From the NCBI GenBank assembly GCA_013813955.1, contig JACCQW010000225.1:1-17540 (forward strand): a DNA stretch of 17,540 nt, in the 5' to 3' direction. Below the pieces are notes generated by a model. The model saw nothing but the letters and a program-made list of their open reading frames with translations, did no database searches and had not been told where the DNA came from. Both the position numbers and the translations under genes were made by a program. Within the stretch, counting starts at the first letter, position 1; the number at the start of each line of letters is the position of its first letter. Origin of the DNA: Solirubrobacterales bacterium (lineage in GTDB: Bacteria; Actinomycetota; Thermoleophilia; Solirubrobacterales; Solirubrobacteraceae). Shown piece by piece: positions 4,146 to 13,145 of the stretch.

Positions 4146-4216
4146 CTGCGGGGCAGGGACTCGAACCCCGATACCCGGCTCCAGAGGCCGGTGTCTTGCC
4201 ATTAGACGACCCCGCA
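4146..4216 (-). tRNA. tRNA-Gln (anticodon CTG)
   Basis: The minus strand folds into a complete 71-nt cloverleaf. The acceptor 5' strand TGCGGGG pairs with CCCCGCA at the 3' end. The D stem is GTCT/AGAC with loop AATGGCA. The anticodon stem CCGGC/GCCGG encloses loop CTCTGGA, giving anticodon CTG at positions 34-36 (reads CAG). The variable loop is GTAT. The T arm CGGGG-TTCGAGT-CCCTG contains one G-T pair. Discriminator G73 suits glutamine. CCA is not encoded. All seven acceptor pairs are Watson-Crick. The gene stands alone rather than in a tRNA cluster, and no copy of its 3' end occurs nearby to suggest an integrated element. Confidence 0.95.
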
Positions 4217-4304: not shown

Positions 4305-4586
4305 ATGATCGGATTCATCGTCGCCGGACTCATCATCGGCCTGCTCGCCCGCCTCCTGCTCCCCGGCCGCCAGCGCATCGGCCTCGTGTGGACCCTGGTC
4401 ATCGGCGTCATCGGGTCGGTGATCGGCGGCACGGTCGCCAACGCGATCGGCAGCGGGGACATCTTCGAGCTGAACGTCCTCGGCTTCGTGATGGCGGTCG
4501 TCGTGTCCGTCGTCGTGCTGGCCGTCGCCGAGAGCGCCGGCCTCGGCAGCGGGCCGGACCGCAAGAAGCTGGACAAGCGCCACTGA
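4305..4586 (+). CDS. GlsB/YeaQ/YmgE-type small membrane protein (transglycosylase-associated family)
   Basis: The product is 93 aa, the usual size for this family. Three hydrophobic segments are visible at about residues 1-20, 25-46 and 58-80, glycine-rich in the pattern GFIVAGLIIGLLARLLLPG...VIGVIGSVIGG that characterises PF04226. The C-terminus is short and basic (DRKKLDKRH) and probably cytoplasmic. In other bacteria, members are often induced by general stress or acid; no biochemical activity is established, despite the family name. No Shine-Dalgarno is evident before the ATG. The ATG at 4294 is out of frame. The gene is a single transcription unit, convergent with the oxidoreductase gene 28 bases away. 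Confidence 0.88.
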   Translation: MIGFIVAGLIIGLLARLLLPGRQRIGLVWTLVIGVIGSVIGGTVANAIGSGDIFELNVLGFVMAVVVSVVVLAVAESAGLGSGPDRKKLDKRH

Positions 4587-4614: not shown

Positions 4615-5862
4615 CTAGGCCCCGATCGCCGACAGGTCGCTGCCGGCGTCGCGTAGCTGCGCCGCCTGCTCCCCGACGTCGGCTCCGGAGGCGATCAGCC
4701 GGCGAGCGTCGTCGAGGTCCCCCGAGCGCCCGACGCTGAGCGCCGCCGCCAGCCTGTTGTCCTTGAGGTACCAGATGCTGAACGCGCCCTCCTCCAGGGA
4801 GCCGCGCACGACCTCCTCGTCCCAGCCCGCCGACGCGGGGCCTACGTACTCCAGCGAGACCCAGTCGCTCAGATCGGAGAAGAAGTAGGGGATCGCCTCG
4901 TGCGCCCGGTCGGCCCCGAGCATGTTCGCCGCCACGGTGCGGCCCTGCTGCACCGCCACGTCCCAGTGCTCGACGCGCAGCGGGCGGCCGTGCACCACGC
5001 TGTCGTACTGGCACACGTCGCCGGCGGCGAAGATGCCCTCCGCCGACGTGCGCAGGCGCGAGTCGCAGCGCACCCCGCCGTGCTCGCCGAGCTCGAGGCC
5101 CGCGGCCTTGGCGAGCATCACGTCGGGCACGGCGCCGACTCCCAGCACGACCGCGTCGGCGCCGAGCTGCGCCCCGCCGGCCAGCACCACGCGCTGCACC
5201 CGGTCGCCCGAGCCCTCCATACGCTCGAGCTGCTCGCCGCCGTGGATCTCGATCCCGCGGGAGGAGAGCAGCTCGCCGAACCAGCGCCCGGCGGTGTCAC
5301 CGAAGCCGGTCGACAGCGGGTGCTCCTCCTGCATGACGATCGTGCACCGGCGCCCGATCGAGGTCAGCGTCGCCGCCACCTCCGAGCCGATGTAGGACCC
5401 GCCGATCAGCACGACGCGCCCGCCCTCGGGCACGTCGTCGCGGATCGCGTCGGCGTTGCCCAGCGCGCGCAGATAGTGGATGCCGTCGAGGTCCGCGCCG
5501 TCGACCGTCAGCCGCCTGACGTTCGCGCCGGTGGCGAGCAGGGCCTGGTCGAAGCGGACGGTCTCCTTCGTGGCAAGCCTGACCTCCATGCCCGCCGCGT
5601 CGAGCTTCATCGCGCTCGCGCGCGTGAGCAGCTCGACGTCGTTGGCCTCGTACCAGCCGGCGGGGTGATACAGCGCGTCCGCGCGCGTCTCGGTCCCGGC
5701 CAGATAGCCCTTGGACGCGGGCGGGCGGTTGTAGGGCGGGTCGCTCTCGCGGCCGGCGAGCAGGATCGAGCCCTCGAAGCCGCCGTCGCGCAGCGCTGCC
5801 GCGCAGCTGGCGCTGGCCACGCCCCCGCCGATCAGCAGGACGTCGACGTGGCGGTCAGCCAC
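4615..5862 (-). CDS. FAD/NAD(P)-dependent oxidoreductase, ferredoxin-reductase-like
   Basis: The product is 415 aa from GTG at 5862. The N-terminal FAD motif is VDVLLIGGGVASASC (residues 6-20). DPPYNRPPASKGYL (41-54) resembles the PPY.RP.LSK flavin-contact segment of ferredoxin, rubredoxin and putidaredoxin reductases. The chain continues with ATGAN (110-114), NAD(P)-binding VLIGGSYIGSEVAA (151-164) and the second FAD motif GIFAAGDV (276-283). The C-terminus holds a reductase-type PYFFSDLSDW (325-334). There is no CxxC pair, so it is not a thioredoxin-reductase-type enzyme. The expected role is electron transfer from NAD(P)H to an iron-sulfur partner; no ferredoxin or P450 lies in the window. 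The start overlaps the TrkA-family stop by eight bases. A TTG at 5880 would add six residues (421 aa) and is the alternative start; neither has a Shine-Dalgarno. The function of an oxidoreductase at the end of a transport operon is unclear. Confidence 0.9.
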   Translation of the reverse strand: MADRHVDVLLIGGGVASASCAAALRDGGFEGSILLAGRESDPPYNRPPASKGYLAGTETRADALYHPAGWYEANDVELLTRASAMKLDAAGMEVRLATKETVRFDQALLATGANVRRLTVDGADLDGIHYLRALGNADAIRDDVPEGGRVVLIGGSYIGSEVAATLTSIGRRCTIVMQEEHPLSTGFGDTAGRWFGELLSSRGIEIHGGEQLERMEGSGDRVQRVVLAGGAQLGADAVVLGVGAVPDVMLAKAAGLELGEHGGVRCDSRLRTSAEGIFAAGDVCQYDSVVHGRPLRVEHWDVAVQQGRTVAANMLGADRAHEAIPYFFSDLSDWVSLEYVGPASAGWDEEVVRGSLEEGAFSIWYLKDNRLAAALSVGRSGDLDDARRLIASGADVGEQAAQLRDAGSDLSAIGA

Positions 5863-6529
5863 CGGCGCCGTTGGGGGCAAACTGCGAGGTGATGTCCTCC
5901 TCCAGGCCCGGGTCGAGGACCACGAGGACCTCGTCGCCGATGTTGATGACCGTGTCGCCCTTGGGGACGAACCCCCCGCCGCCGCGGGGCAGCACGGAGA
6001 TGATCAGGCTGCCGTCGGGCAGCTCGACGTCGGCGACCGTGCGGCCCACCGCGGGCGCTCCCTCGGTGACCTCGACCTCGATGATCTCCAGCTTCTCGTC
6101 GGGCAGGTCGAGCAGGTGCACCAGCCCGTGCCCGGGCACCTCGTGCTCGATGAGGTTGAGGATGAGGTCGGTGGCCGACACCGCCGGCTGGATGCCCAGC
6201 AGTTTGAAGTGCGTCAGGTTGCGCGGGTTGTTGCAGCGGGCGATGATCCGCTCGCAGAGGTACTTCTCCTTGGCGACCTGGCAGATGAGGATGTTGTCCT
6301 CGTCGTCGCCGGTGACCGCAACCACGAGGTCGGCTCGCGCTATGCCGGCGCGCTCGAGCACCCACAGTTCGGTGCCGTCGCCGTACTGGACGGCGTGCTC
6401 GAGCTCCTGCTCGATCTTCAGGTAGGCGCTGCGGTGGCCCTCGACGAGCGTGACCTCCTGGCGCTTGCGGATCAGCTCGCGGGCGAGGTTGAGCCCGACC
6501 TTCCCGCCGCCGACGATGACGACGTACAC
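5855..6529 (-). CDS. TrkA-family K+ transport regulator (RCK_N + RCK_C)
   Basis: The product is 224 aa from GTG at 6529, two bases after the stop of the preceding TrkA-like gene. It starts directly with the Rossmann fold MYVVIVGGGKVG (glycines at 7, 8, 9 and 12), with Glu30 at the end of beta-2 where an acidic residue contacts the NAD(H) ribose. Residues 1-125 are the TrkA_N domain. About 140-215 is a TrkA_C domain (LEIIEVEVTEGAPAVGRTVADVELPDG...GDTVINIGDEVLVVLDP). In known systems such proteins sit on the cytoplasmic face of K+ channels or transporters and gate them in response to NAD(H) or ATP/ADP. No TrkH or KtrB-like membrane subunit is visible; the membrane partners at hand are two APC permeases. 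Size and order resemble mycobacterial CeoB/CeoC as I recall them. Confidence 0.9.
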   Translation of the reverse strand: MYVVIVGGGKVGLNLARELIRKRQEVTLVEGHRSAYLKIEQELEHAVQYGDGTELWVLERAGIARADLVVAVTGDDEDNILICQVAKEKYLCERIIARCNNPRNLTHFKLLGIQPAVSATDLILNLIEHEVPGHGLVHLLDLPDEKLEIIEVEVTEGAPAVGRTVADVELPDGSLIISVLPRGGGGFVPKGDTVINIGDEVLVVLDPGLEEDITSQFAPNGAGG

Positions 6530-6531
6530 GG

Positions 6532-6972
6532 CTACACGCTCCCGTTCTGCGCCACGGCGTCCTCGAACATCTGGATGCCGAGCTTGACCGCGCAGACCGT
6601 GTGCAGGCCCTGCTTGGCGTACCAGTCCGAGCGCGCCGGATCGAGCACGCGCACGATCACGCGCTCCACGCCGTAGCGCTTCTTCGCGACCTGGGCCACG
6701 AGGATGTTCGTGTTGTCGCCCCGGGTGGCCGCGATGAAGACGTCGGCCTCCTCGACGCCGGCCGCCACCAGCGCGTCGATCTCGATCGCGGTGCCCACCG
6801 TGAAGCGCCCGCCGGCCTCCTCCCACGAGATGTCCTGGCCGGCCTGGCCGGCGTCCAGGCGCTCGTGCGAGAGCGGGTCCTCGTCGAGCACGGAGACCGT
6901 GTGGCCGGCGGCCAACGAGGACTTCGCGACGGCCGACCCGACCCGGCCCGCCCCGACGATGAGGACCATCAT
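6532..6972 (-). CDS. TrkA_N (RCK_N) domain protein lacking the C-terminal domain
   Basis: The product is 146 aa. It opens with MMVLIVGAGRVGSAVA, a Rossmann nucleotide-binding loop at residues 7-12, with Asp30 in the ribose-contact position. ADVFIAATRGDNTNILVAQVAKKRYGVERVIVRVLDP is typical of TrkA_N. The chain ends after the Rossmann fold (KLGIQMFEDAVAQNGSV), so the TrkA_C ligand-binding domain present in the next gene is absent. No frameshifted remnant follows, because the next gene begins two bases after the stop; the short form therefore looks genuine. Two ATG codons are adjacent at 6972 and 6969; I took the first. The start is 17 bases after the permease stop. It probably pairs with the 224-aa protein as a regulatory heteromer. 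Confidence 0.87.
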   Translation of the reverse strand: MMVLIVGAGRVGSAVAKSSLAAGHTVSVLDEDPLSHERLDAGQAGQDISWEEAGGRFTVGTAIEIDALVAAGVEEADVFIAATRGDNTNILVAQVAKKRYGVERVIVRVLDPARSDWYAKQGLHTVCAVKLGIQMFEDAVAQNGSV

Positions 6973-6989
6973 CGTCGTGATGCTAGCGA

Positions 6990-8903
6990 TCAGCCGGGGG
7001 CGCCCGCCCCATCGTCCTCGCTGGGCGGAGCGGTGAGGATCACGCGGCAGGGCGCCTTGCGCACGACGTACTTGGTGGCCTCCCCGATGAAGTTGTCCAG
7101 CGGGCCGCCGGTGCCTCCAAGCCGCGCGCCGCCGCGGATGCGTGAGGGCTCGTCGGCGGCGAGCACGATGAGCTCGACGCCACGACGCGCAGCCTCCCCC
7201 ACGATTGCCTCGCCCACGCGCCGGGCGCGCACGGTCGCCGTCGCGACGTCGACGCCCTCGTACTCCTCGCCGACCGCCTTGGCGCGGGCGAGCGCCGCGC
7301 GCGCGCGCTTGAGCTGGTCCTCCGGCAGGCGCGCGTCCAGCGGCAGCGACAGCGGGATCTCGAACACCCACAGCGCCTCGATGGTGGAGCCCTCGCCCTC
7401 TGCCGGGTCGGCCCGCTCGTCCGCGGCCAGCCGCCCGGCGGTCTGCACGATGTCGTCGTCGAGCGGGCCGCCGAAGAGCGGCACGAGGATCGAGCCGTAC
7501 TCGATCCGCCTGCGATCGGCACGCAGCGCCGCCTCGGGGACGACGACGCGACGCAGCAGCGACTTGCCCTGGGTCGTGCGGTAGACGACGTAGACCAGAA
7601 CGCCGGCGGCCATCCACGCCATCCCGAGGTAGCGGGCACCCTCGTGGTAGATCACGAGCGTCGCGAACAGCCCGGCGGTCAGCAGCGCGCCGAGCGCGGC
7701 GGGGATCGGCAGGTCGCCTCCGCCGATCCTGACCGAGAGAGGGATCCGATAGGGCCGCGGGCGGTCCGGCTCGCGGTAGCGCAGCACGCAGATCGACAGG
7801 TGGGCGAGGAAGAACGCCAGCAGCGCTCCGAAGGCGTAGATGCCCACGAGAAAGTCCAGATCCGCGGGGGCCGCGAGCGCGCACGCGAGCACCGCCGCAA
7901 GCAGGATGACGATGAACGGCGTGCCCCAGCGCGGGTGCAGCCGCCCGATGGCGCTGGGAATCTGCCGGTTGGTGACCAGCGAGTAGCCCAGCCGCGAGAG
8001 GCCGAGCATGGCGCCGTTGGCCGCCGCGACGAGCATGACCGTGGCGAGCGCGGCGACGGTGTACGTCAGCGCCTCGGCCAGCCAATCGGGGTCATAGGCC
8101 CCGACGACCCCGAGCACGGGCGCCTCGAGCGAACTGCCCCCGAGCGTCGTCTCACCGCCCGTGATCGGAGCCGCGCTGACCGCGACCAGCGCGATCCCCG
8201 TGTAGACGACCAGGACCGATCCGGTGGCGGTGGTGACCAGGCGCTTGAGGCCGCGACGGCCCACCGCCACCTCGCCCGCCAGCCCGGACGCCGACTCCAG
8301 GCTGGTGAACGCCACCGTGCTCACGGTCAGAGCGAAGACGAAGTCCTCCCAGCGCGGCTGGCTGCCCAGGTCGATCGAAGCGGTCAGGCGGTCGAGGTCG
8401 AGGAACTGCGCCAGGCCGATGAGGATGATCAGCAGCTGCAGCAGCACGTCGGCGACGACCAGCCCCAGGTAGCGCGGGCGCCCGGCGCCGCGCACGTTGC
8501 GCACCGCCACGTAGACGATGATCACCATCGTCACCGCGAGCTCCAGCCCACCCTCGTCGAGCTCGGTCCAGAAGGCGCCCATGTAGTTCGATGCCGCGAA
8601 CGCGGTGACCGCGAGCAGGATGAGGAAGTCCAGCAGCACGGCCCAGCCCGCGACGAAGCTCCACAACTCGTTGAACGCATGACGCGCGAACACCGTCGAA
8701 CCCGCTCGCTCCTGGTGCAGTGAGGCGCCCTCGACGTAGGTCATCGCCGTCAACGCGAAGAACAGCCCGCCCAGCAGGAACACGAGCGGCGTCAGGCCCA
8801 GCGCGTTGTCGGCCACCACCCCGAGGGAGAAGTAGATTGCGCTGGCCAGCGACGTCCAGACGATGGCGAACAGCGCGGGCGAGCCCAGCGAGCGGCGCAT
8901 CAC
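6990..8903 (-). CDS. APC-family permease with C-terminal universal-stress (Usp) domain, second copy
   Basis: The product is 637 aa. Residues 1-445 are a polytopic APC-type membrane domain of about 12 helices, and about 465-628 form a soluble cytoplasmic Usp-like domain (YGSILVPLFGG...ELIVLAADEP...GEATKYVVRKAPCRVILT). The N-terminal helix keeps the APC pattern with an unwound stretch (FAIVWTSLASAIYFSLG). The Usp end reads GGARLGGTGGPLDNFIGEA..., a glycine-rich segment at the place where ATP-binding Usp proteins hold GxxGxxxxxxxxxG(S/T). The start is GTG at 8903, with ATG as the very next codon; both overlap the stop of the 64-aa gene (GTGATG). The substrate is unknown: APC members carry amino acids or, in the KimA group, K+. 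It is divergent in sequence from the upstream permease, so the two are not a recent tandem duplication. Confidence 0.92.
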   Translation of the reverse strand: MMRRSLGSPALFAIVWTSLASAIYFSLGVVADNALGLTPLVFLLGGLFFALTAMTYVEGASLHQERAGSTVFARHAFNELWSFVAGWAVLLDFLILLAVTAFAASNYMGAFWTELDEGGLELAVTMVIIVYVAVRNVRGAGRPRYLGLVVADVLLQLLIILIGLAQFLDLDRLTASIDLGSQPRWEDFVFALTVSTVAFTSLESASGLAGEVAVGRRGLKRLVTTATGSVLVVYTGIALVAVSAAPITGGETTLGGSSLEAPVLGVVGAYDPDWLAEALTYTVAALATVMLVAAANGAMLGLSRLGYSLVTNRQIPSAIGRLHPRWGTPFIVILLAAVLACALAAPADLDFLVGIYAFGALLAFFLAHLSICVLRYREPDRPRPYRIPLSVRIGGGDLPIPAALGALLTAGLFATLVIYHEGARYLGMAWMAAGVLVYVVYRTTQGKSLLRRVVVPEAALRADRRRIEYGSILVPLFGGPLDDDIVQTAGRLAADERADPAEGEGSTIEALWVFEIPLSLPLDARLPEDQLKRARAALARAKAVGEEYEGVDVATATVRARRVGEAIVGEAARRGVELIVLAADEPSRIRGGARLGGTGGPLDNFIGEATKYVVRKAPCRVILTAPPSEDDGAGAPG

Positions 8904-9094
8904 GGGCGCTCACCGCGCTCGAGGTAAAGGCGCGCGGCGCCGGCCGCGACGAAGAGCAGACCCATGAAGACGCCGACGGCGAACGGCCCGCCGCCGTTGG
9001 CCAGCGTGACCGCCAGGAGCACGACGCCGATGACCACCATCGCCGCCGACAGCACGCGGGTGGAGGCGCGGTGCACGTCGCGCGGCTCGGGCAC
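8900..9094 (-). CDS. Small two-helix membrane protein between two permeases
   Basis: The product is 64 aa, from GTG at 9094 (sharing one base with the permease stop: TAGTG) to TGA at 8902-8900 (inside the GTGATG start of the next permease). It is therefore translationally linked on both sides. A short basic N-terminus (VPEPRDVHRASTR) is followed by two hydrophobic segments, VLSAAMVVIGVVLLAVTLA and FAVGVFMGLLFVAAGAARLY, separated by a glycine-rich turn (NGGGP), and a charged tail LERGERP. No domain is recognised. The exact fit of both ends and the clean membrane-hairpin pattern make a real gene very likely. A role as a small accessory subunit of the neighbouring permeases is possible but unproven. 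Confidence 0.8.
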   Translation of the reverse strand: MPEPRDVHRASTRVLSAAMVVIGVVLLAVTLANGGGPFAVGVFMGLLFVAAGAARLYLERGERP

Positions 9095-11013
9095 TAGACG
9101 CGCACCCCGGCCCGGGCTGCGCCGGCCCCCGTCTCGTCGGCGCCCGCGGGCTCGGACTCGATGATGACCCGGCACGGGCGGTCTGAGAGCACGGTCTCCA
9201 GCGTCTTGCCGAACAGCGTGGTGCCCGTGCGCGGAGGCAGCGGGAGCACGATCGCGCGAGCGCGGATCGCCCGCGCCTCCTCGATGATCACGCGTCCGGC
9301 CTGGCCGGCGCGGATCTTGATCACCCGCCCGCTGACCCGGCGCCCGCCCTGCAGGCGCGCCCGCTCGATGACCGTCTGGGCCGCGGCCTCCTGCTCGACG
9401 AGCTCGGCGTCCAAGGGGGCGGACTGCGGCACGGTGACCGTCACCAGGACGTAGATGCCGCGGCGGCGCCGGGCGGCGAGCTTGCCGGCCGTGGCGAGCG
9501 TCTGGGACGTGTAGTCGGATGCCTGCACCGCGACGAGGATCGATTCGTACTCGGCCTCGGTAGCCGTGGCCGGCTGGGGCACCGCGACCTTCGCCGTAGT
9601 CGTGAGGTCGAGGCCCTGGTTGCGCCGGTAGGCGATGTAGAGGCTGATCCCGAGCCCGAGCCACGCCACGCCGGCGAGGGCGACGTCGAGGTTCAGCGCG
9701 GTCACCACGACAAAGGCGATCGCGGTGCCGGTGCCCCCGAGCACGGCGAACACGGGGACGTCGACGCCACGAACGCGCACGTTGCCCGGCCCGCGGTACG
9801 GGCGCTCCTGCTCGGGGAGCTTGGCCCGCAGCCGGAAGACCGAGACGTGCGCGATCGTGAACGAGAGCATCGCGCCGAACGCGTACATGTTCCCCAGGAA
9901 CTCCGCCTGCCCGGGCAGCAGGGTCAGCATCGCCACGCAGCCGAACAGCAGGATCCCGATCCACGGGGTGCCGAACTTGGGATGCAGCTGGCGCAGGCGA
10001 TCGGGCACCTGGCGGTGGATGCCCATCGAGTAGACCAGGCGCGAGACCCCGATCAGCCCGGCGTTCGTCGCGATGAACAGGATCGTCGCGGCCAGGATGC
10101 CCACGTAGATCTCGCCGGCCCCCTGCAGCGGGCCGAGGTCGATCTCCTTGACCACCCCGAGGATCGGATCCCCGGCGAAGCCTCCGTCCTCCTCCGGGAG
10201 GCCGAGCTTGGTCTCGTACTCCCCGCTGTCGGGGTTGAGCGTGACGGGCAGGGCCGACAGCGCGACTGCGGGCAGCGTGAAGTAGATGGCGAAGACCGCG
10301 AGGCGCACGCGGCTGATGGCGGCGGGGATCGTCGTGGCCTCGTCCTTGGCCTCCTCGGCGAGGTTGGAGATCGTCTCGATGCCGGTGTAGGCGACCATGC
10401 CGAGCGGGATCGCCAGCAGGAAGTCCGTCCACGTGGGCGCCACGCCGAAGGACACGTTGTCGGCGAGGGTCTCGGGGCTGAGCACGAGCACGATGCCGAC
10501 CAGCACGAGCAGGATCTGGGTGAGGAAGTCCACGACGGCCAGGACGATGTTCACCCCGGCCGACTCCTTGATGCCGACGACGTTGACGGCCGACAGCACC
10601 GCGATGATCACGATGCCGGCGAGGATGTCCCCGGGCGCCGAGCGCAGTGGCTCCCAGAACAGCCCGCCGATGTAGTGGGGCACGAAGAACGCCGAGATGG
10701 CGACCGTGATCACGTAGTTGAGCATCTGGCCCCACGCGGCGAAGAACGACCAGAACTCGTTGAACGCGCGGCGCGCGAACGACGACGAGCCCCCCGCCTC
10801 GGGGTACATCGCCGTCGCCTCGGCGTAGGTGGCGGCGGTCCAGAAGAAGATCACGCCGGTGATCAGGAACACGATCGGCGTGAGGCCGAGCGCGAGCCCG
10901 GCGACGAGGCCCAGCGCGTAATAGATCGAGGACCCGACGTTGCCGTAGGCCGTCGAGAACAGTGCGTTGACCCCCAGCACACGCTGCAGGCCGTGGAGCC
11001 GGCGTTCAGCCAC
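9094..11013 (-). CDS. APC-family permease with C-terminal universal-stress (Usp) domain, first copy
   Basis: The product is 639 aa, starting at GTG 11013. Residues 10-465 hold about 12 membrane segments with APC features: STAYGNVGSSIYYALG around the broken first helix, YPEAGGSSSFARRAFNEFWSF (70-90), and YTGIETISNLAEEAKD (209-224), a typical APC helix-6 region. The cytoplasmic C-terminus (about 488-622) is Usp-like: ESILVAVQASDYTSQTL...RAIVLPLPP...DRPCRVIIE. The glycine-rich ATP motif is reduced (RTGTTLFGKTLETVLS), so ATP binding is uncertain. Nucleotide-sensing cytoplasmic domains of this kind occur in KimA-type K+ importers, but amino acid transport is equally open. No Shine-Dalgarno precedes the start; TAGACT lies 11 bases upstream. 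It heads a run of six minus-strand genes. Confidence 0.92.
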   Translation of the reverse strand: MAERRLHGLQRVLGVNALFSTAYGNVGSSIYYALGLVAGLALGLTPIVFLITGVIFFWTAATYAEATAMYPEAGGSSSFARRAFNEFWSFFAAWGQMLNYVITVAISAFFVPHYIGGLFWEPLRSAPGDILAGIVIIAVLSAVNVVGIKESAGVNIVLAVVDFLTQILLVLVGIVLVLSPETLADNVSFGVAPTWTDFLLAIPLGMVAYTGIETISNLAEEAKDEATTIPAAISRVRLAVFAIYFTLPAVALSALPVTLNPDSGEYETKLGLPEEDGGFAGDPILGVVKEIDLGPLQGAGEIYVGILAATILFIATNAGLIGVSRLVYSMGIHRQVPDRLRQLHPKFGTPWIGILLFGCVAMLTLLPGQAEFLGNMYAFGAMLSFTIAHVSVFRLRAKLPEQERPYRGPGNVRVRGVDVPVFAVLGGTGTAIAFVVVTALNLDVALAGVAWLGLGISLYIAYRRNQGLDLTTTAKVAVPQPATATEAEYESILVAVQASDYTSQTLATAGKLAARRRRGIYVLVTVTVPQSAPLDAELVEQEAAAQTVIERARLQGGRRVSGRVIKIRAGQAGRVIIEEARAIRARAIVLPLPPRTGTTLFGKTLETVLSDRPCRVIIESEPAGADETGAGAARAGVRV

Positions 11014-11060: not shown

Positions 11061-13145
11061 CTAGGCGACGAGTGGGATTATCAGGATCGCGACGATGTTG
11101 GCCACCTTGATCATCGGGTTGATCGCGGGGCCGGCGGTGTCCTTGTAGGGGTCGCCGACGGTGTCTCCGGTGACCGACGCGGCGTGGGCCTCGGAGCCCT
11201 TGCCGCCGAACTCCCCGTCCTCGATGAGCTTCTTGGCGTTGTCCCACGCTCCGCCGCCGGCGGTCATGGCCACGGCCATGAACAGGCCGACCACGATGAC
11301 GCCGATGAGCAGGCCGCCGAGCGCCTCGACGCTGAGCAGGCCCACGACGAGCGTGAAGACGATCGGGATCAGCGACGGCAGGATCATCTCCCGCTGGGCG
11401 GACTTCGTGACGATGTCCACGCAGCGCGCGTAGTCGGGCTGATCGGTGCCCTCCATGATCCCGGGCTTCTCGCGGAACTGGCGGCGCACCTCCTCGACGA
11501 CGGCGCCGCCGGCACGGCCGACGGCCTCCATCGACAGCGCGGCGAACAGGTAGACCATCAGGCCGCCGATCAGCAGGCCGACGAGCACCTCGGGCTGATC
11601 GATCGGGAACGCGATCGCCTCGTTGCCGTCCTTGGCCAGCTCGTCCTGCAGCTCGATCTTGAACGCCGCGAACAGCACCAGGGCGGCGAGCACGGCGGAG
11701 CCGATCGCGTAGCCCTTGGTGACGGCCTTGGTCGTGTTGCCGACCGCGTCGAGCGGATCGGTGACGTTGCGCACCTCCTCGGGCATCTCGGCCATCTCGG
11801 CGATGCCGCCGGCGTTGTCGGTGATCGGGCCGAACGCGTCGAGCGCCACGATCAGGCCGCAGAGGCCCAGCTGGGCCATGACGGCGACGCCGATGCCGTA
11901 GATGCCGCCGAGCTCGTTGGCCCCCAGGATCCCCAGGGCGAGCACGAGGGCGGGCAGGGCGGTGGCCTGCATGCCCTGCGCCAGGCCGGAGATGATGTTC
12001 GTCGCGTGCCCGGTCTGCGAGGCCTCGGCGGTCTTCCTGACCGGCCGGAACCGCGTCGACGTGTAGTAGTCGGTGATCACGAACAGCAGGGCGGTGACGG
12101 CGAGACCGATAAGCGAGCACAGGTACAGGTCGCCGGCGCTCGGCACGATGATGTTCACGTCCGCGTTGAGCGTCACCAGGTCGTCCATCAGCCACTTGGT
12201 GACCGGGTAGAACGCCGCCGCGGCGATCGCGCCGGACAGGATCAGGCCCTGATAGAGCGCGCGCTCGACGTTGCCCGCGGCCGACTTGACGGCGAACGTG
12301 CCGATGATCGAGGCGATGATGGCCACGCCGCCCAGCACGAGCGGGTACAGCGCGACGTTCGTGACGATGTCGTTGGAGCCCCCGAAGGTCAGGACGCCGA
12401 GCAGCATGACCGCGACGGCGGTGACCGCGTAGGTCTCGAAGAGGTCGGCGGCCATGCCGGCGCAGTCGCCGACGTTGTCGCCCACGTTGTCGGCGATGAC
12501 CGCGGGGTTGCGCGGGTCGTCCTCGGGGATGCCGGCTTCGACCTTGCCGACGAGGTCGGCGCCGACGTCGGCGCCCTTGGTGAAGATGCCGCCGCCCAGC
12601 CGGGCGAAGACCGAGATCAGCGACCCGCCGAACCCGAGGCCGATGAGCGCGTCCACCGCCTCCTTCTGGGAGCGGTCGAAGATCGCGGTGAGGATGCCGT
12701 AGTAGCCGGCGACGCCGAGCAGCGCGAGGCCGACGACGAGCAGGCCGGTGATCGCGCCGCCGCGGAAGGCGGCGTCCAGCGCGGGGCTGATGCCCCCGCG
12801 ACCGGCCTCGGCCACACGGGCGTTGGCGCGCACCGACACATTCATGCCGATGAACCCGGCGGCCGCCGACAGCAGGCCGCCGATCGCGAAGCCGGCGGCC
12901 ACCGCGATGTCCTGCAGCGGGATGAGCACTACGAACAGCACGACGCCGACAACGGCGATCGTCGTGTACTGGCGGCGCAGGTAGGCCGAAGCACCCTCCT
13001 GCACGGCCTTGGAGATGGCGACCATGCGCTCGTTGCCCGGTGACAGGGCCAGCAGCGAGCGGGTCGTCAGGGCGCCGTACAGCACGGCGAGGGCCGCGCA
13101 CACCAGCGCGATGACGACCCCATGGTCGGTCAGGAAATCACTCAA
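11061..13145 (-). CDS. hppA: K+-independent H+-translocating membrane pyrophosphatase
   Basis: The product is 694 aa and polytopic, the usual length for the bacterial enzyme. It hydrolyses cytoplasmic pyrophosphate and pumps protons out across the membrane. Substrate and metal motifs are present: [11 protein letters not shown] (193-203), [12 protein letters not shown] (209-220), DNVGDNVGD (219-227), and near the C-terminus [10 protein letters not shown] and [14 protein letters not shown]. The type-deciding segment reads GNTTKAVT (469-476). Lys473 and Thr476 are the pair found in K+-independent enzymes, where K+-dependent ones have Ala at the Lys position; characterised K+-independent members are proton pumps. 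The start is TTG at 13145, chosen because a strong GGAGG lies nine bases upstream and no ATG or GTG in frame lies nearby. The gene has its own leader and probably its own promoter. The permease operon follows after 47 bases. Confidence 0.97.

Follow-up and report, generated by a model that had tools for sequence, protein, structure and literature searches.

In the 17,540-nucleotide stretch of Solirubrobacterales DNA analyzed here (hereafter the window; contig JACCQW010000225.1 of GenBank assembly GCA_013813955.1, contig C197 of this 77%-complete genome assembly in our set), we found a minus-strand operon in which the genes of two TrkA-type proteins, TrkA1 and TrkA2, are placed directly behind those of two APC-fold permeases with C-terminal Usp domains, APC1 and APC2 (Table 1). 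TrkA proteins are the textbook regulators of TrkH/KtrB channels, and in many of the actinobacteria sampled a TrkA pair is present and a TrkH match is absent. The operon suggests a Trk variant with an APC-fold membrane part and, thus, a different kind of K+ uptake system. We lean slightly towards the reading that it encodes a K+ uptake system of the Trk kind, with an APC/LeuT-fold secondary transporter, and not a TrkH/KtrB channel, under the control of the TrkA (RCK) pair. In support of this, related TrkA pairs were found next to membrane partners of three kinds, two of them belonging to known K+ transporter families.

The open reading frame (ORF) coordinates and the Pfam matches bear out what an earlier reading of the DNA (the sequence-only reading) had described, i.e., six minus-strand genes separated by at most 17 bases and encoding two permeases, a small protein, two TrkA proteins and a flavoenzyme. 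The widest gap lies between the APC2 stop and the TrkA1 ATG, the remaining junctions are of 2 bases or overlapping, and the start of the flavoenzyme gene overlaps the TrkA2 stop. The AA_permease_2 profile recognized the APC1 and APC2 permeases at 138.8 and 99.3 bits (cut-off 27), which places both in the APC superfamily. TrkA1 corresponds to the protein that comes first in the actinobacterial TrkA pair. With TrkA_N in both TrkA proteins and TrkA_C in TrkA2, the operon possesses the TrkA/RCK regulatory subunits of Trk/Ktr systems, and a linked TrkH/KtrB membrane subunit is missing.

This organization is conserved within one actinobacterial class more than expected by chance. From a scan of named genome contigs for APC1 we kept the best 80 of 107 relatives, titled Solirubrobacter, Conexibacter, Patulibacter, Svornostia, Thermoleophilaceae and similar metagenome-assembled genomes (MAGs). 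In 49 of the 59 named loci whose sequence extends 4.3 kb or more beyond APC1, the genes of APC2, TrkA1 and TrkA2 all follow on its strand in the next 9 kb, so that the conserved linkage of APC-Usp permeases with TrkA proteins proposed earlier holds. In a 50th locus (L193), APC2, TrkA1 and TrkA2 are adjacent and APC1 is inverted. In turn, the TrkA pair is missing after APC1 in nine loci (L175, L177, L179, L184, L200, L210, L211, L215 and L220). A homolog of the small 64-amino acid (aa) protein is encoded in 46 of the 49 complete loci. A downstream flavoenzyme gene (match above 150 bits) accompanies 17 of the 42 complete loci that extend for 5.3 kb or more; the other 25, L199 with several weaker pieces among them, keep the rest of the operon. 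The pyrophosphatase gene that ends 47 bases upstream of APC1, overlooked by the sequence-only reading, has an upstream homolog in 24 of the 37 complete named loci that offer at least 6 kb of upstream and 4.3 kb of downstream sequence, and neighbor clustering placed pyrophosphatase-related frames no further than 7 kb from the TrkA pair at 26 of 80 loci across the phylum. Since flavoenzyme and pyrophosphatase occur only in part of the loci, APC1-small protein-APC2-TrkA1-TrkA2 constitutes the constant core; of the six-gene operon described earlier, this core stands and the flavoenzyme is not a constant member.

Several loci deviate in other ways. At L175, L179, L184, L200, L210, L211 and L215, APC1 is followed by a second, more distant APC1-type paralog, the TrkA pair being absent, while at L179, L184 and L200 an APC2 precedes APC1. 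Records titled as Bifidobacterium breve MAGs (L145, L159, L171 and L173) hold a Solirubrobacterales-type operon with an APC1 identity of 70–75%, and these titles are probably wrong.

As for the TrkA pair, a TrkA1 search of 198 genomes from the phylum gave matches in 167; 80 loci from 78 genomes were fetched and surveyed together with the window. These loci are mostly the better TrkA1 matches and not a random draw, genomes with weaker matches lying outside the survey. Partners were sought within 2.5 kb, so that permeases further off (L070, L081) and fragments below 150 bits (e.g., a cut-off permease piece at L109) were scored as none. Beside the pair we found a KimA-type permease in 35 of the 81 neighborhoods, TrkH in 14, APC-Usp permeases in six, APC-Usp together with TrkH in one, and no partner in 25. 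KimA-type partners are spread over 20 families and TrkH over 11. The surveyed loci contain 44 KimA-type frames of at least 500 aa, 33 of which are at most 500 bases from the pair (seven on its strand, 26 on the other), and in 30 of the 35 KimA-linked cases the genome gave no TrkH match at all. Thus, the membrane partner varies and the TrkA regulators stay.

The partners also follow the relatedness of the regulators. In a tree of joined TrkA1 and TrkA2 sequences (80 rows; L069 was paired by hand and stands outside it), one set of 10 comprises seven loci with adjacent APC-Usp permeases and three with none (Shimodaira–Hasegawa-like approximate likelihood ratio test, SH-aLRT, 90), a set of 16 comprises 13 with TrkH and three with none (SH-aLRT 93), and a set of 51 comprises 33 with KimA-type permeases and 18 with none (SH-aLRT 94); none of the three sets is starred, and L095 stands alone on a very long branch. 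The partner labels require 15 changes on this tree vs. a mean of 38.5 after shuffling, a value as low being reached in none of 200 shuffles, which ignore relatedness. The nucleotide-binding signatures of the pair are kept: GxGxxG is present in 80 of 80 TrkA1 and 78 of 80 TrkA2 homologs, and β-2 ends with an acidic residue in all 80 of each, so that nucleotide sensing by these proteins, as proposed in the sequence-only reading, appears plausible. Among the homologs listed, 119 of 120 TrkA1 proteins are of the short form (139–149 aa); since first pair members elsewhere are often of about 220 aa, TrkA_C seems lost or absent in TrkA1 of the window's lineage. The window's own genome gave further TrkA_N matches at G000:C36:1666-1965 and G000:C317:882-1181, in frames of 466–469 aa.

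In a PDB search at E 0.01, the KimA-type permease of locus L090 had KimA as its sole match (378 bits, nearly whole length), and it keeps residues D36, Y43, D117, T121, S125, T230, E233 and Y377 of Bacillus subtilis KimA. Locus L066, a mycobacterium with about 94% identity to named Mycobacterium proteins, has a KimA-type permease adjoining its TrkA pair (frames of 261 and 224 aa), which makes the analogy with mycobacterial ceoB/ceoC drawn by the sequence-only reading stronger than claimed. Judged from adjacency and from L066, Rv2690c would be this KimA-type protein, and mycobacterial CeoBC may work with the adjacent permease. Excerpts of published work on the tuberculosis bacterium place ceoB and the adjacent Rv2690c among transposon mutants surviving rifampicin better (PMC12216072), report that Rv2690c and ceoC variants emerged in one isolate (PMC11878324), and present its Trk system as consisting of two TrkA proteins (PMC13163235). 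The words TrkH and Rv2690 are absent from the available text of the CeoBC papers PMC13163235, PMC6375644 and PMC12136442, and among the titles listed none was relevant to a link of CeoB with KimA or TrkH, or to APC permeases with TrkA family proteins. For Streptomyces venezuelae, a review excerpt mentions the KimA-like Vnz_27465 and an RCK_C protein, Vnz_27460, described there as not binding cyclic di-AMP (c-di-AMP; PMC10117811); their tag numbers suggest that the two genes are adjacent.

Whether APC1 itself resembles a K+ transporter was judged from profiles, structure and site residues. Its profile scored 43.1 bits with KimA, below the amino acid transporters CAT4 (82.6), Xc- (82.3) and BasC (77.8); altogether, 26 sequences (amino acid transporters and ApcT) outrank KimA, and full-length sequence similarity to KimA is lacking, while the KimA-type profile A3 scored 688 bits. 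Membership of APC1 in the KimA family was, thus, rejected on sequence, though structure favors KimA. The two c-di-AMP-bound KimA entries are the top matches of the APC1 model by Z, 43.6 (rmsd, root-mean-square deviation, 13.9; 513) and 42.9 (rmsd 14.5; 531), and cover both its membrane and cytosolic parts; the model shows an APC fold followed by a cytosolic α/β domain. Superposed on ApcT and BasC, the membrane core gives an rmsd of 2.5–2.8 Å over 412–422 residues, and among the VIA matches listed only the KimA and NKCC/KCC entries reach the C-terminal domain. For APC2, the matches to KimA and ApcT are tied.

For the site residues, we aligned 14 APC1-type rows (three are paralogs, and two rows lack linkage to TrkA) jointly with 11 other APC permeases of genomes G119, G152 and G163 as controls. 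Equivalents of KimA Y43, T121, S125, T230, E233, N237 and Y377 are present in all 14 APC1-type rows; in the controls, Y43, T121, S125 and Y377 are found in none, T230 in one, N237 in four and E233 in six, so that E233 and N237 are weak markers. The D117 equivalent is Asn in 10 APC1-type rows, Asp in three and Val in one. APC1 thus holds six of the eight KimA site positions, those of the K+/H+ residues Y43, T121, S125, T230, E233 and Y377. In APC2, T121 is kept in 0 of 10 and S125 in one of 10 sequences, and the first transmembrane (TM1) motif of APC1 is also missing; with T121 and S125 nearly absent, APC2 fits a regulatory or structural half.

It is possible, though unlikely in our judgment, that the permeases import an amino acid or another organic osmolyte (e.g., a K+ counter-ion), the TrkA pair tuning this uptake or being merely co-expressed in osmotic adjustment. 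The order of profile scores and the fit of the membrane core to ApcT and BasC agree with this explanation. So does the place of KimA Asp36, for which none of the 14 APC1-type rows has an acidic equivalent, although the alignment there is uncertain (a non-acidic residue of APC1 in one alignment, a gap in another). The Kup TM1 motif is GDIGTSPLY; by analogy with it, the invariant Asn of the APC1 motif GN[VI]GSS presumably sits at the place of the Asp. Both the low KimA score and the missing acidic residue weigh against a Trk-like K+ system, and the latter is a serious objection to plain KUP chemistry since the D36A/N substitutions of KimA were reported to abolish K+ uptake (PMC6994465, in excerpt). 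What argues for K+ are the five residues Y43, T121, S125, T230 and Y377, invariant in APC1-type proteins and nearly lacking in the controls, the finding that among the listed VIA matches the C-terminal domain is reached by KimA and NKCC/KCC alone, and genomes that combine the TrkA pair and APC1 with no match to a known K+ importer family. K+, named as a plausible substrate by the sequence-only reading, remains the likeliest candidate. The KimA-type plan which that reading had also seen is retained in the APC fold, the cytosolic domain and the site residues, but not in KimA membership.

The genomes in question came from family searches for known K+ importers and channels in 18 genomes of the class, which detected TrkH in 10, KdpA in two, K_trans/Kup in four (one weak), strong KimA-type permeases in three, Ion_trans_2 in 13 and TMEM175 in five. 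In five of the 18 (G152, G163, G054, G130 and G065), TrkH, KdpA, Kup and strong KimA-type permeases were all without match. The first four, 97–99% complete, possess the TrkA pair and APC1; Ion_trans_2 matches were found in G152, and Ion_trans_2 and TMEM175 matches in G163, whereas G054 and G130 have neither. G065, a 98%-complete member of the class, gave no match for TrkH, KdpA, Kup, KimA-type permeases, TrkA1 or APC1. In the window's own genome, the window included, no TrkH/KtrB (PF02386) was detected at 77% completeness, while 11 of 14 control genomes were positive.

We consider it improbable that the TrkA pair regulates TrkH or another K+ channel encoded elsewhere, the APC permeases merely sharing a K+/osmotic stress neighborhood without contact; yet a good part of the evidence that weighs against our preferred reading lies here. 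Counterparts of the pair adjoin TrkH in 15 of the 81 neighborhoods. Nine of the 12 f6-family genomes with both genes (G109, G213, G243, G263, G280, G289, G295, G318 and G322, sometimes with two TrkH) have TrkH no more than 3 kb from APC1/APC2, and in the other three the genes are on different contigs; this is a potassium gene cluster, and because of that proximity the f6 TrkA pair could serve TrkH. In G054 and G130, APC1 is present yet not adjacent to the TrkA pair, and in G130 and G087, both of f3, the pair comes after the pyrophosphatase, with APC1 unlinked. The Ion_trans_2 matches of G152 and G163 offer further candidate channels. Since Kup was found in the window's own genome, Kdp in G119 and TrkH in G098, the operon cannot be the only importer in all genomes. 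A class-wide test gave no sign that APC1 excludes TrkH: in 150 genomes, TrkH was detected in 37 of 79 with APC1 vs. 30 of 53 without (p 0.29), a count that omits 18 partial matches from families f57 and f4 and keeps G243, G249 and G258 among the 79 on an APC2-type match alone (about 37% identity). Against a channel elsewhere stand the window's own order, where TrkH occurs in just eight of 34 APC1-bearing genomes and, in the three families other than the window's, in 0 of 15; G054 and G130, which gave no TrkH, Ion_trans_2 or TMEM175 match for the pair to gate; and the KimA-type permeases that adjoin the pair in 20 families. A TrkH consistently paired with these TrkA proteins, named by the sequence-only reading as evidence that would speak against it, was thus not found in the window's order, but f6 does have a nearby one.

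If the TrkA pair does control the permeases, APC1 would import K+ with the membrane potential or protons as the driving force, its Glu corresponding to the KimA proton residue E233. The upstream pyrophosphatase carries GNTTKA, which we take to be the mark of K+-independent H+-pyrophosphatases; it is a possible source of proton motive force and would help maintain the proton gradient. APC2, without part of the site, would heterodimerize with APC1. An assembly of TrkA1 and TrkA2 would bind ATP/ADP or NAD(H), sense adenine nucleotides and dock on the cytosolic domains of the APC1-APC2 dimer, opening or locking the inward gate in the way c-di-AMP acts on KimA. An excerpt on KimA offers the precedent of a dimer with two c-di-AMP molecules bound, trapped in an inward-occluded state (PMC10284832). 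Transport and complex formation are what we infer, and the operon is a good K+ candidate. That the flavoenzyme sets an NAD(H) signal which the TrkA proteins read, i.e., the redox coupling proposed by the sequence-only reading, is highly improbable: the gene overlap with TrkA2 and the kept Rossmann signatures fit it, but the flavoenzyme is patchy (17 of 42 complete loci) and had no match at the fetched neighborhoods of G098 and G119.

Compared with known systems, APC1 shares with KimA, the KUP-family K+/H+ symporter of B. subtilis (PDB 6s3k, 8b70, 8b71), the APC/LeuT fold and a C-terminal cytosolic α/β domain, KimA being the best whole-chain match of the predicted structure; besides the profile score and the Asp36 place, the difference lies in an operon with two paralogous permeases, a small protein and a TrkA pair. 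In the CeoBC ("Trk") system of Mycobacterium, a TrkA pair of the same tree adjoins an APC-superfamily permease, as here, yet there a single, divergently oriented permease truly related to KimA is found and the TrkA frames are full-length, whereas the window has two co-oriented APC-Usp permeases and a TrkA1 with RCK_N only. With TrkAH/KtrAB the operon has in common the TrkA/RCK regulators with nucleotide-binding signatures, and related pairs adjoin TrkH in other families, but TrkH is absent from the operon. KhtTU/CpeAB, in which an RCK_C protein acts with a K+/H+ antiporter, provide a precedent for RCK-domain control of a secondary transporter, according to the same review excerpt (PMC10117811). 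They are of the cation/H+ exchanger type with a c-di-AMP-binding RCK_C, and the signature given there, (I/L)(I/L)X2DX1RX5N(I/L)(I/L), was found in 0 of the 80 TrkA pairs. As for the cation-chloride cotransporters (NKCC1, KCC), none of their chains is among the 43 sequences of the APC1 profile search at E 0.001.

KimA-type and APC-Usp permeases, as conserved neighbors of TrkA pairs, are concrete candidates for the membrane partner of orphan pairs, and the phylum-wide pattern points to KimA-type permeases in this role. More tentatively, and with somewhat less than even confidence, we propose that, across Actinobacteria, TrkA/RCK pairs generally act as the regulatory subunits of K+ transporters with a LeuT fold. 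The partner would be a KimA-type permease, divergent or tandem, in the 20 sampled families, including the unnamed membrane subunit of CeoBC; in Solirubrobacterales and kin it would be a heteromeric APC1-APC2-Usp transporter whose K+ site lacks the KUP aspartate. If so, one regulator module is exchanged between two kinds of membrane protein that differ in fold, ion channels and secondary transporters, while genomes seemingly without any K+ importer gain a candidate.

Table 1. Genes of the operon and its upstream neighbor in the window.
Gene product	Position	Strand	Basis and remarks
Membrane proton pyrophosphatase (hppA-like)	11061..13145	-	ORF; ends 47 bases upstream of APC1, same strand
APC1, APC-fold permease with C-terminal Usp, candidate transporting subunit	9094..11013	-	Pfam AA_permease_2 + Usp
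Small protein, 64 aa, possible accessory subunit	8900..9094	-	ORF; two hydrophobic stretches by eye
APC2, diverged APC1 paralog with Usp domain, candidate partner/regulatory subunit	6990..8903	-	Pfam AA_permease_2 + Usp
TrkA1, 146 aa, RCK_N (TrkA_N) only, CeoB-like but without TrkA_C	6532..6972	-	Pfam
TrkA2, 224 aa, CeoC-like, TrkA_N + TrkA_C, c-di-AMP RCK_C signature absent	5855..6529	-	Pfam
FAD/NAD(P)-dependent reductase (flavoenzyme), optional neighbor	4615..5880 (TTG start) or from 5862 (GTG)	-	Pfam Pyr_redox_2 + Reductase_C

A Pfam search with the 64-aa protein returned zero matches. The search of the window for promoters and terminators gave nothing clear: one weak promoter-like site was located upstream of APC1 (11104-11077), and two terminator-like sites both fall within coding sequence, their count being near the shuffled expectation. 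No riboswitch in the window exceeded the Rfam cut-off, the sole result being a tRNA at 4146-4216. Beside this tRNA, a convergent gene at 4305-4586 encodes a 93-aa protein that resembles Transgly_assoc only weakly (below the cut-off).

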